From Deltaproteobacteria bacterium (lineage in GTDB: Bacteria; Desulfobacterota; Desulfobacteria; Desulfobacterales; Desulfosalsimonadaceae): 61,188 bases of DNA. Position numbers and translations under genes: made by a program. How positions within the stretch are numbered: position 1 is the stretch's first letter; every line of letters starts with the position of its first letter. Of the stretch, positions 39,127 through 58,954 are shown in pieces. The notes beneath the pieces are model-generated. The model did no database searches and had not been told where the DNA came from. It saw only the letters and a list, made by a program, of their open reading frames with translations. The stretch covers positions 1 to 61,188 of the forward strand of contig JAADHK010000112.1 in assembly GCA_013151835.1 (NCBI GenBank), read 5' to 3'.

Positions 39127-39759
39127 CTATTTTGTAAGTTTTGATATCACGAGGCTCAAGGTGTCATCGGCCATTTTGGAGCCTTGCAAAAGGAGGGTTT
39201 CCATCTCTTTTTTCGTGGTTTCGATGAACTCCTGATCCTTGATTGCGTTTAAATTTATGATAACATTTAATTGTCCGGCAATGAGCGCTGACTTCAGGAA
39301 GACGACCCCGCAGCCCACGTCGGATATAGCTATCATTGTCCCTATTTCTCCCATGCGGGCGTGGATTTTAATGCCCTCATATGCCTGGCGCATGATCTCC
39401 ATGGGAACCGAGCATGCCGTCTTGCAGCAATTTTCCATGGTTTCCGCCTTGAACTTGACTTCCTCGGGCGTGTTTTTCGGCAGTCCGTATGCCCTGGAAA
39501 GAGGTTCGAAAACCTCGGCGTCCTTGTCCACCAGGCTCTCAAGATCGGCGATTACCTTTTTGCCCTGCTCAAGAAGGTCTTTTACCTCGTCTTCGACATC
39601 GGCGTATTTCTTTTTTCCCACAGTCAGGTTGCCCACCATGTTGGAAAGGGCCATGCCGATGGCGCCGCCCATTGCAGCCGCGCCGCCTCCGCCGGGGACC
39701 GGGGACTTGGACGCGAGAACGTCGATGAAATCAGTGCAGGTTTTGTCGAGCATTGTCAT
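39127..39759 (-). CDS. Formiminotetrahydrofolate cyclodeaminase-type protein
   Basis: A 210-residue protein of the FchA/FTCD_C family that makes methenyl-THF from formimino-THF with loss of ammonia. Characteristic blocks are SPVPGGGGAAAMGGAIGMAL, NLTVGKKKY and ISDVGCGVVFLKSAL. The stand-alone domain (no formiminotransferase half) is typical of anaerobes. It forms an operon with folD, where it would feed methenyl-THF; in sulfate reducers this may belong to the methyl branch of the Wood-Ljungdahl pathway (inference). Confidence 0.88.
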   Translation of the reverse strand: MTMLDKTCTDFIDVLASKSPVPGGGGAAAMGGAIGMALSNMVGNLTVGKKKYADVEDEVKDLLEQGKKVIADLESLVDKDAEVFEPLSRAYGLPKNTPEEVKFKAETMENCCKTACSVPMEIMRQAYEGIKIHARMGEIGTMIAISDVGCGVVFLKSALIAGQLNVIINLNAIKDQEFIETTKKEMETLLLQGSKMADDTLSLVISKLTK

Positions 39760-39960: not shown

Positions 39961-40098
39961 TGGAAAAGGGCCTTGATCATCGTTTCGGCCAAATCCGGTT
40001 TTTGTAGGGGCAACCCCCTGTGGTTGCCCTATGATCAGGGTAAGCACAGGGGCTTACCCCTACCGGATGCCCGAAACGATGATCAAGGCCTGGAAAAG
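39961..40098. mobile_element. 122-bp MITE-like element with 8-bp target duplication
   Basis: Perfect 20-bp terminal inverted repeats (39969-39988 GGCCTTGATCATCGTTTCGG and its exact complement at 40071-40090) are flanked on both sides by TGGAAAAG (39961-39968 and 40091-40098). The interior is a second imperfect hairpin that contains the GTAGGGGCAACCCC palindrome. The element has no coding capacity. The intact ends and target site suggest a recent insertion. The rest of the 39760-40255 gap holds the solo end at 40216 and no gene. Confidence 0.85.
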
Positions 40099-40255: not shown

Positions 40256-42682
40256 ATGAAGCTTATCCTTAAAATCACCGGCATTATCGTTGCGCTGCTT
40301 ATAATAGCGATTATTTCCATTGCGGTGGTGGCACATTTTGTAATTACTCCCGAGCGGGTCCGGGCCCGTGTGATTCCTCTGGCCGAAAATGCTTTAAACA
40401 GGAAGGTTGACCTTAAGGACATAAGAATATCTATTTTTTCGGGCATAACGATTACGGGATTTTCCATTGCGGAAGCCGACGGCAAGACCCCTTTTGTCTC
40501 GGCCGATACGGCTGTTTTAAAATACAGGCTCATGCCCCTTTTACACGGGAAAGTCGAGGTGGATGAAATCGGCCTTTCCCATCCCAAAATCAGGGTCGTG
40601 CGGAACCGGGACGGGACTTTTAATTTCAGTGATCTTATCGTCTCAAAACAGGAAGAAGGAAAAAAAGATGCGAAAAAAACCAAGCCTGATACAAAACAGG
40701 GGAAAAACCCTGTTGCGCTCCTGGTTTCAAAAGCGGCTGTCTCAGGTTGTGATATAAATTTTACAGACCATGCAGCCCCGGGGAAAACCCCTTTTATTCT
40801 GCGCATCACCGGGCTTGACCTGAGAGCAAGCGATATATCCCTTAACAAGCCGTTTCCGTTTAATTTTAAAGCCGACCTTAACGGCAGGCGACTGTCTGCC
40901 GCAGGTTCGGTTGATCCCTCAAAATCGGCGTTTGAGGCCAAAATCAATATTTCCGGGTTTCCTTTAACCGATTTTGAGGCGTATTTTAAAAAAGCCGTGC
41001 CAGGCAAGCTTGAATCAGCCGAATTAAGCGTTGATGTGAAGATTACGGCCGACAGCAAAAAGGTTTTGTCTTCCGGAATCATAGGGGTAAAAAATATAGG
41101 CATGACCCTTGATTCCATGCCGGATGCACGGATCAAAAATGCCCACCTGTCACTTGATTACGATATTGGTGTCGACCTGAAGGCATCGGCTGTTACCATA
41201 AAAAAGGCGTCGGCTAATGTAAACGGCATAAAGATTAACGCAAAGGGTTTAGTGACCCGCTATGACAAGACGCCCGTGCTCGATGTGGGTGTGACCATCC
41301 CGGATACGAGTCTTTCAGATGTGCTTGGTGCCATGCCGGCAGGTATTGCCGCAAAGGTCAAAGACCTGAACCTGAAAGGGAAGGTTATGGCCGAAGCCCG
41401 TATTGCCGGACCGGTCTCTTCTCCTGAAAAACTCCTGGATATGGCCTGGGTATCGCTTGAGAATGTGTCTGCAAAGGCCGGAGGGCTTGAGCCGGTTGTT
41501 TTTGGCAAGATAAATGCCGCCCACGACAGCGTAAACACCAAAGGCCTTGTGATTGCGCTTGGCAAAGACAAGTTGTCAATTGATCTTGACGTTAAAAATC
41601 TCTTGGCACATCCAATGCTTGTCAAGGCGGATATAAGCTCTGATCATATTGATGTGGACGCACTTATGGCCGCTATGCAAAAGCCGGCAGCGCAGCAAAA
41701 GAAAATGCAAAAAAAGGAAGAGCTGCCCGTTTCCTCGAAAAAGCCTGTCGAAATCGGGCCTTTTGATATTCCCGTTACTGCGGATGCAAAGATCGTGATT
41801 GCTAACGCGCTTTACAAGGGGCTCGATATTTCGGACATCCGCCTTATGTGCAGGCTTGAAAAGAACGTCTTTTATCTGAAAGACTTTTCCGCAAAGGTCG
41901 CAGGTGGAACGATTGCGTCAACCGGCCGGGTTGATCTGTCCCGCAGGGGCCTCGGATATGTTGCAAACCTGAAGACCGCCGGGGTCAAGGCCGAACCGCT
42001 GGTGGCGGCGTTTGTGCCGTCCGCTTCGGGCACTGTGTTTGGAACCATTAATCTGACCGCAGATGTTAAGGGAAATGGAACGGACCCGGATGCCATTAAA
42101 AAGAACCTTTCTTCAAATATGGAAATAAAGATTGCGGACGGCCGTGTGACTGGCCAGGGGCTTGCGGCCGGCCTTGCCGATTTTTTTAATACAAAAAAAC
42201 TTAAGGTTATTGATTTTAAAAAATTCGCCGGAAACGTTAAAATTTCAGGCGGCAAGGCAATGATAGATTCTGATTTCAGCGGGCATGACGTACGCATGAG
42301 GCCCAAGGGCAAAATCGGGCTTGACGGCGGCCTCGATCTTGCGCTCGATCTTCGTCTTGCCCCGGAGTTAGCAAAAAAAATAGACAAACACGGTTCGGTT
42401 ACGAAGTTTCTTTCCGATGATTCCGGGTGGAGCATGATCCCGCTTAAGCTTGCTGGTACCTTTTCATCCCCCAAATTTTCTATGGATCTTTCCGCCGTGA
42501 CCACCCAGGCGAAAAAGAAAGCGGCGGCCATGATAGAGAATAAGATTAAGGAAAAGCTTTTTAAAAGATTTCTGCCAAAGACTAAAAAAGGGGAAAGCCG
42601 GGATGATTCCGGGAACAAACAGGTGGAAGAGGAGGCAGGCAAACTAATTAACAACGCCTTAAAGGGGCTTTTCGGAAAATAG
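40256..42682 (+). CDS. AsmA family envelope protein
   Basis: An 808-residue protein with one N-terminal membrane anchor (residues 4-26, rich in Ile and Val) and a long periplasmic part with repeated beta-strand pattern. The start FVITPERVRARVIPLAENAL plus the C-terminal segment (GRVTGQGLAAGLADFFNT, DLALDLRLAPEL) matches AsmA-like proteins, which are thought to bridge membranes and move phospholipids. A Lys-rich stretch (about residues 135-150) and a second one near 475-490 look like linkers. Start ATG 40256 has AAAGGGG upstream. No partner gene identified. Confidence 0.85.
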   Translation: MKLILKITGIIVALLIIAIISIAVVAHFVITPERVRARVIPLAENALNRKVDLKDIRISIFSGITITGFSIAEADGKTPFVSADTAVLKYRLMPLLHGKVEVDEIGLSHPKIRVVRNRDGTFNFSDLIVSKQEEGKKDAKKTKPDTKQGKNPVALLVSKAAVSGCDINFTDHAAPGKTPFILRITGLDLRASDISLNKPFPFNFKADLNGRRLSAAGSVDPSKSAFEAKINISGFPLTDFEAYFKKAVPGKLESAELSVDVKITADSKKVLSSGIIGVKNIGMTLDSMPDARIKNAHLSLDYDIGVDLKASAVTIKKASANVNGIKINAKGLVTRYDKTPVLDVGVTIPDTSLSDVLGAMPAGIAAKVKDLNLKGKVMAEARIAGPVSSPEKLLDMAWVSLENVSAKAGGLEPVVFGKINAAHDSVNTKGLVIALGKDKLSIDLDVKNLLAHPMLVKADISSDHIDVDALMAAMQKPAAQQKKMQKKEELPVSSKKPVEIGPFDIPVTADAKIVIANALYKGLDISDIRLMCRLEKNVFYLKDFSAKVAGGTIASTGRVDLSRRGLGYVANLKTAGVKAEPLVAAFVPSASGTVFGTINLTADVKGNGTDPDAIKKNLSSNMEIKIADGRVTGQGLAAGLADFFNTKKLKVIDFKKFAGNVKISGGKAMIDSDFSGHDVRMRPKGKIGLDGGLDLALDLRLAPELAKKIDKHGSVTKFLSDDSGWSMIPLKLAGTFSSPKFSMDLSAVTTQAKKKAAAMIENKIKEKLFKRFLPKTKKGESRDDSGNKQVEEEAGKLINNALKGLFGK

Positions 42683-58872: not shown

Positions 58873-58928
58873 GTGCAACACGCCTAACGGCAAAAAACGG
58901 GGAATCACCGGAAATCTGGCGAACATAT

Positions 58929-58954
58929 GGGCAACCACAGGGGGTTGCCCCTAC
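58929..58954 (-). repeat. GTAGGGGCAACCCC palindrome
   Basis: A 26-bp palindromic repeat, exactly the reverse complement of 40004-40029 and related to 5527-5552. It ends 15 bp before the flavodiiron gene start. Confidence 0.75.

Follow-up and report, generated by a model that had tools for sequence, protein, structure and literature searches.

A 122-bp MITE in a Desulfosalsimonadaceae genome shares its ends with insertion sequences encoding DUF6399, the probable source of its transposase

Results

A palindromic element with near-perfect ends lies between two divergent genes

The window, the whole stretch of 61,188 nucleotides that was analysed, carries a 122-bp element at 39969-40090 that sits between two divergent genes, FTCD_C and AsmA/DUF748 (Table 1). 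The arms of its terminal inverted repeats (TIRs) are 23 nt long and match at 22 of 23 positions, the first 20 being perfect and the sole mismatch falling at position 21, and all 23 bp of the left arm are identical to one end of a DUF6399 element (L319) in genome G059. An earlier note on this DNA had described the coordinates, the perfect 20-bp TIRs and the exact 8-bp duplication TGGAAAAG, all of which proved correct base for base. The element, at just 122 bp, contains no transposase gene. As a single strand it folds into one long hairpin of -49.5 kcal/mol (z = -10.3; an equally stable fold in 0 of 200 shuffles of the 122 bp), and an Rfam scan returned no family at the gathering score. The palindromic core opens with GTAGGGGCAACCCC at 40004-40017. 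Other sites in the genome have the GTAGGGGCAACCCC hairpin free of these ends, with nearly the whole core on contig C115 and parts of it on C126 and C94, which bears out the earlier description of one repeat nested in another.

Table 1. Features of the locus (positions in the window) and DUF6399 elements with exact 8-bp duplications (length, or position in the named locus)
Feature	Position or length	Strand	Remark
Neighbour FTCD_C (formiminotransferase-cyclodeaminase) gene	39127..39759	-	Gene start to element, 209 bp
Left target-site duplication TGGAAAAG	39961..39968	.	8-bp duplications recur across the family
Left TIR GGCCTTGATCATCGTTTCGGCCA	39969..39991	+	From the sequence
Spacer, left TIR to hairpin core	39992..40003	+	Varies in other own-genome copies
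Palindromic core GTAGGGGCAACCCC...GGGCTTACCCCTAC	40004..40063	+	Occurs TIR-free elsewhere too
Right TIR	40068..40090	-	Pairs with left arm
Right target-site duplication TGGAAAAG	40091..40098	.	From the sequence
Neighbour AsmA/DUF748 protein gene	40256..42682	+	Element to gene start, 165 bp
L308	1916 bp		Duplication GTCCAACC; DUF6399 by Pfam HMM
L310	1918 bp		Duplication GCGCATTG; DUF6399 by Pfam HMM
L325	1793 bp, frame broken		Duplication GGAATTGC; DUF6399 by Pfam HMM
L337	1865 bp		Duplication AAATTTCG; DUF6399 by Pfam HMM
L331	1775 bp		Second TIR type GGCTACC...; duplication CGGCTTCT; DUF6399 by Pfam HMM
L333	1759 bp		Second TIR type GGCTACC...; duplication GTAAACTA; DUF6399 by Pfam HMM
L360	3760-5453, 1694 bp		Second TIR type; duplication TTCATTTT; DUF6399 by tblastn

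Two further repeats were seen in the window: a TIR-free part of the GTAGGGGCAACCCC hairpin at 58921-58954, near GCAGGCCCCCGTGCCTGCCC-type repeats, and a separate short repeat, TTTTTACGANGCCATCAA, which at up to 2 mismatches occurs 12 times (4016, 4163, 7561, 11334, 16019, 19962, 20109, 40217, 48740, 48807, 53411 and 55772) against 0.02 expected by shuffling and has matches in relatives too.

The element belongs to a family of copies flanked by 8-bp duplications

Scripted pairing of ends in the host genome yielded 10 end-bounded elements, the window's included, 5 of them with exact 8-bp duplications and 7 with duplications of at least 7/8; the 18-bp end had 40 matches at up to 3 mismatches, compared with 0 for a reversed-pattern control. 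BLAST of the element against its own genome gave 24 matches; these count palindromic copies again on the reverse strand and include matches to the core alone. Seven full copies share the interior, on contigs C77 (the window's), C64, C55, C147, C46, C1 and C32, the other six being 88-97% identical to the window copy, and an eighth, on C56, is cut off by the contig end. Exact duplications flank the copies on C77, C64, C55, C1 and C32, and 7/8 duplications those on C147 and C46. C42 and C104 carry a different interior; the duplication is 6/8 at C104, and at C42 it is 4/8 by script and an exact GAAGAAAA by eye when a 3-bp shorter left end is allowed. The tenth end pair, on C88 (duplication 3/8), is probably due to chance. 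In all, nine other elements bounded by these ends or by near variants of them accompany the window copy. The insertion of the latter, which the earlier note had called recent, is plausibly so from the exact duplication and ends. In two relatives (G028 and G032) the neighbouring gene is present and no TIR at up to 5 mismatches lies within 2.5 and 3.1 kb, respectively; these are not true empty sites, because their upstream sequence is unlike the window's.

The ends extend far beyond this genome. Of the 36 genomes of the family, 18 contain the 22-bp end at up to 3 mismatches, with a maximum of 204 matches in G034, and the exact 20-mer was found in at least 118 stretches when one genome per species was searched. 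Judged by the titles of their records, the 20-mer matches listed included Desulfobacterales and further delta lineages, Magnetococcales and Chromatiaceae, as well as one Anaerolineales MAG and other groups, contamination of MAGs being possible; viral contigs gave 0 exact matches.

Across all collected loci we catalogued 112 distinct elements, 60-800 bp long and bounded by such ends, from Desulfobacterales, Magnetococcales, Chromatiaceae, the Anaerolineales MAG and others. The sample is non-random, and since many of its loci had been retrieved with the exact 20-mer, the uniformity of the ends is in part a product of the sampling; variants exist. The 8-bp duplication is exact in 49 of the 112 and at least 7/8 in 64, against 0.02% and 0.28%, respectively, for randomly re-paired flanks, and among other lengths exact duplications numbered 6 at 9 bp and none at 6, 7 or 10 to 12 bp. 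These counts support the 8-bp duplication as a trait of the family. Decayed copies, shifts of the kind seen at C42, and pairs that are mixed or due to chance make up the 48 elements without a duplication. The target site has a weak symmetric preference, with G/C at the outer positions and A then T at the inner ones.

Grouping of 110 interiors by blastn (E <= 1e-3 over half of the shorter sequence) gave 31 groups, 16 of which have at least one member bearing a duplication of at least 7/8. When one representative per group was folded with RNA parameters against 60 shuffles, z fell below -3 in 21 of the 31 groups and in 13 of the 16 duplication-bearing ones, the remaining three being L081 (z -3.0), L160 (-0.9) and L156 (-0.4).

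Several loci have unusual arrangements. L090 (contig C30 of G010) holds four tandem 22-bp ends at 1070-1145, with a GGCC overlap and an 18-bp period, which recall the TIR arrays reported for Thiohalocapsa in the excerpted text of PMC10907252. The same 8 bases, GAATATAC, precede ends of this TIR family at L137, L148, L198, L210, L219 and L228, through insertion into another repeat or co-amplification with the flank. A 744-bp Magnetococcales element (L167, 6658-7401) has an exact duplication GCAAATCG and an interior formed by an array of repeated hairpin units, and at L149 (6211-6647) the left part of the element with its AGAATTAT flank occurs twice ahead of a single right end.

The same ends bound elements that encode DUF6399

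A scan for end pairs covered 381 kb of each of two plasmids from Ca. Thiodictyon syntrophicum. One pair, spaced 1,916 bp and flanked by the exact duplication GTCCAACC (L308), encloses one annotated gene, named 'DUF6399 domain-containing protein', whose product matches Pfam DUF6399 (PF19936, E 5.8e-59) with a weak N-terminal helix-turn-helix. Five further proteins match DUF6399, and for none of the 6 tested, the Thiodictyon protein included, does any NCBIfam transposase model score close to its cut-off. The DUF6399 elements with these ends are 1.8-1.9 kb long, and their sole large gene encodes the DUF6399 protein.

A TIR-agnostic search of 51 DUF6399 loci, many of which are fragmentary, for an exact 8-bp repeat beside a 22-bp inverted repeat at a spacing of 1.2-2.6 kb recovered six elements (L308, L310, L325, L331, L333 and L337), four with GG(C/G)CTTGATCAT ends and two with a second type close to GGCTACCCACTTAAAGCGGGAC. 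Ends of the first or second type bound 12 of 15 near-full-length DUF6399 loci, and 6 of those 12 have an exact duplication; L309, L311, L314 (in G034, the closest carrier), L316, L319 and L335 have TIRs at both ends and no exact duplication, and L354 and the cyanobacterial L361 and L362 have no recognised ends. In L321, whose frame is broken, inspection by eye shows a 9-bp duplication. ORFs in four loci with unpaired ends included no visible transposase. A complete second-type element (L360) lies in a predicted viral contig, IMGVR_UViG_3300002092_000058; a viral search found no relative with a single protein query and one with an alignment query, and a phage collection gave no DUF6399 match.

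The window MITE has only its outer bases in common with the DUF6399 elements, 23/23 in G059 and Thiocystis and 22/22 in G034. Position 17 of the TIR is C in 12 of 14 Thiodictyon MITE ends (none T) and in both ends of the resident DUF6399 element; in the other groups 110 of 114 ends have T there, as the DUF6399 elements of G034 and G059 mostly do.

Ten DUF6399 proteins share the invariant motifs D158-E-T, S-D212, D232-x-F-H and S-S-x-V-E484-G-R-N (L314 numbering), and in one protein only (L331) a weak rve and IS481 similarity spans D158 and D212. The conserved D, D and E and these matches suggest a DDE transposase, the likeliest reading being that a long insert would precede the E. An AlphaFold model reached pLDDT 41, too low to be of use, searches of PDB and PADLOC returned no relative and no match, respectively, and PHROGs gave one weak HTH match.

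DUF6399 and the ends co-occur across the order

Among 291 genomes of the order, at least 4 TIR matches occur in 12 of 21 DUF6399 carriers versus 22 of 270 others (Fisher p 1.3e-7, which is too small because the genomes are related), and at least 1 match in 18 of 21 versus 71 of 270. One carrier, G193, has an intact DUF6399 gene and no first-type end but does have a second-type end. In the window's genome (97.6% complete) neither HMM nor protein search found a DUF6399 gene, and G034 is the sole carrier among the 36 family members. Ten or more end matches without a DUF6399 gene occur in G000, G010, G014, G018 and G032, and one DUF6399-negative genome, 99% complete, has 167 TIR matches. In such genomes the transposon may have dropped out of short-read assemblies or been lost from the genome itself, or another enzyme may serve the ends.

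Discussion

The element is a real MITE, because duplications are far above the level of re-paired flanks, nine further elements occur in its own genome and 16 unrelated interior groups carry duplications; the absence of an internal gene agrees with this identification, which the earlier note had proposed. That note had also called for a transposase acting in trans, an idea strengthened by the DUF6399 elements that the same ends bound in other genomes. We consider it very probable that the element is a non-autonomous MITE moved in trans by the DUF6399 protein of a 1.7-1.9-kb insertion sequence, which in the window's genome would have been lost or left unassembled. The protein would recognise ends of about 22 bp (GGCCTTGATCATCGTTTCGGCC), excise or copy the element, cut-and-paste and copy-paste both being possible, and insert it through 8-bp staggered cuts in a target of weak symmetry (G/C outside, A then T inside), whose repair would leave the 8-bp duplication. 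The enzyme would need the ends only, and the interior would be a passenger, a hairpin repeat of the host.

IS1595 and ISL3 transposases also produce 8-bp duplications. The IS1595 family (PF12762) is absent from the host genome, and its 17 loci in 8 of 15 genomes or records had, at best, a single end with 6 mismatches. For ISL3 (PF01610), nine genomes gave one partial match (28 profile positions), a fragment at the end of own-genome contig C83, and the TIR is absent from the 1.65 kb there. We therefore rejected both as partners. The IS4 or ISAs1 partner suggested in the earlier note found no support, since the same ends enclose DUF6399 genes whose products, in the 6 tested, are near no NCBIfam transposase cut-off. 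It is very unlikely, despite the many TIR-rich genomes, the window's among them, that have no detectable DUF6399 gene, that a different classical transposase (IS4, ISAs1, IS256, IS66 or similar) moves the MITE and that the DUF6399 elements are fellow users of its ends; against this, every end pair more than 1 kb apart with an exact duplication in the loci scanned encloses a DUF6399 gene, and neither the 17 IS1595 loci (at up to 5 mismatches) nor the sole ISL3 match has such an end.

The MITE might instead have been amplified long ago and now be immobile, kept for a function of its hairpin as a terminator, in RNA stability or in insulating the divergent genes. The very stable fold, the position between divergent genes and the failure to find a partner-family transposase in the host genome fit this scenario, whereas seven copies, each at its own site and flanked by an exact or 7/8 duplication, and the lack of an Rfam family at gathering score, speak against it while being compatible with an old stop of movement; we hold it to be highly improbable. 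A chance inverted repeat is already refuted by the empty reversed-pattern control and by the duplication statistics against re-paired flanks.

Beyond trans-mobilisation by DUF6399, a wider proposal can be made, which we hold with slightly more doubt than belief: DUF6399 may be an unrecognised DDE transposase family that makes 8-bp duplications and has the 22-bp end as its minimal substrate, each host bracketing its own palindromic repeats as new MITEs. With the ends alone needed, hosts would build new MITEs, and the same ends would cross phyla while their cargo is replaced. If so, the DUF6399 system would be a general machine for spreading hairpin repeats. The shared ends link many small hairpin elements, from Desulfobacterales, Magnetococcales and Chromatiaceae as well as from an Anaerolineales MAG, to one mobile system. 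They give a testable role to a Pfam family whose function is unknown, and the elements make up a series, provided by nature, of minimal transposons in which the cargo changes and the ends hardly do.

The Pfam label of DUF6399 reads "unknown function", and plasmid records still name these proteins DUF6399. Neither DUF6399, PF19936 nor the 20-mer end was found in the open-access literature; ISfinder may list them under a different designation. ISNCY groups such as ISDol1 resemble the DUF6399 elements in length and have a Desulfobacterota host, and MITEAba12 (PMC6382973) is an example of a bacterial MITE. The ISNCY group names, ISDol1 among them, appear in the excerpted text of PMC8147514. Already well known are MITEs as such and, from the excerpt of PMC3119063, the sharing of ends only: in Haloquadratum walsbyi, MITE and transposon sequences are described there as unrelated save for a few terminal bases. 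By the same excerpt, the palindrome-associated transposable elements (PATEs) are, like ours, palindromic and too short for a transposase; they are described without TIRs or target duplications, both of which our element has, and we rejected that identity. In Thiohalocapsa PB-PSB1, hairpin-forming, MITE-like TIR arrays match IS-element ends of a Chromatiaceae genome (excerpted text of PMC10907252), a likeness to our element by description. Another Thiohalocapsa MAG (L130, L135) carries our TIR. The IS labels given in that excerpt are IS_223, IS411 and IS_238, with no DUF6399. Like bacterial MITEs in general, as the excerpt of PMC3119063 presents them, the element is short and non-coding, with TIRs, a target duplication and a transposase that would be supplied in trans; unlike them, it has a DUF6399 protein as its probable partner, and its 20-bp end is found, identical, in several phyla with interiors that are unrelated to each other.
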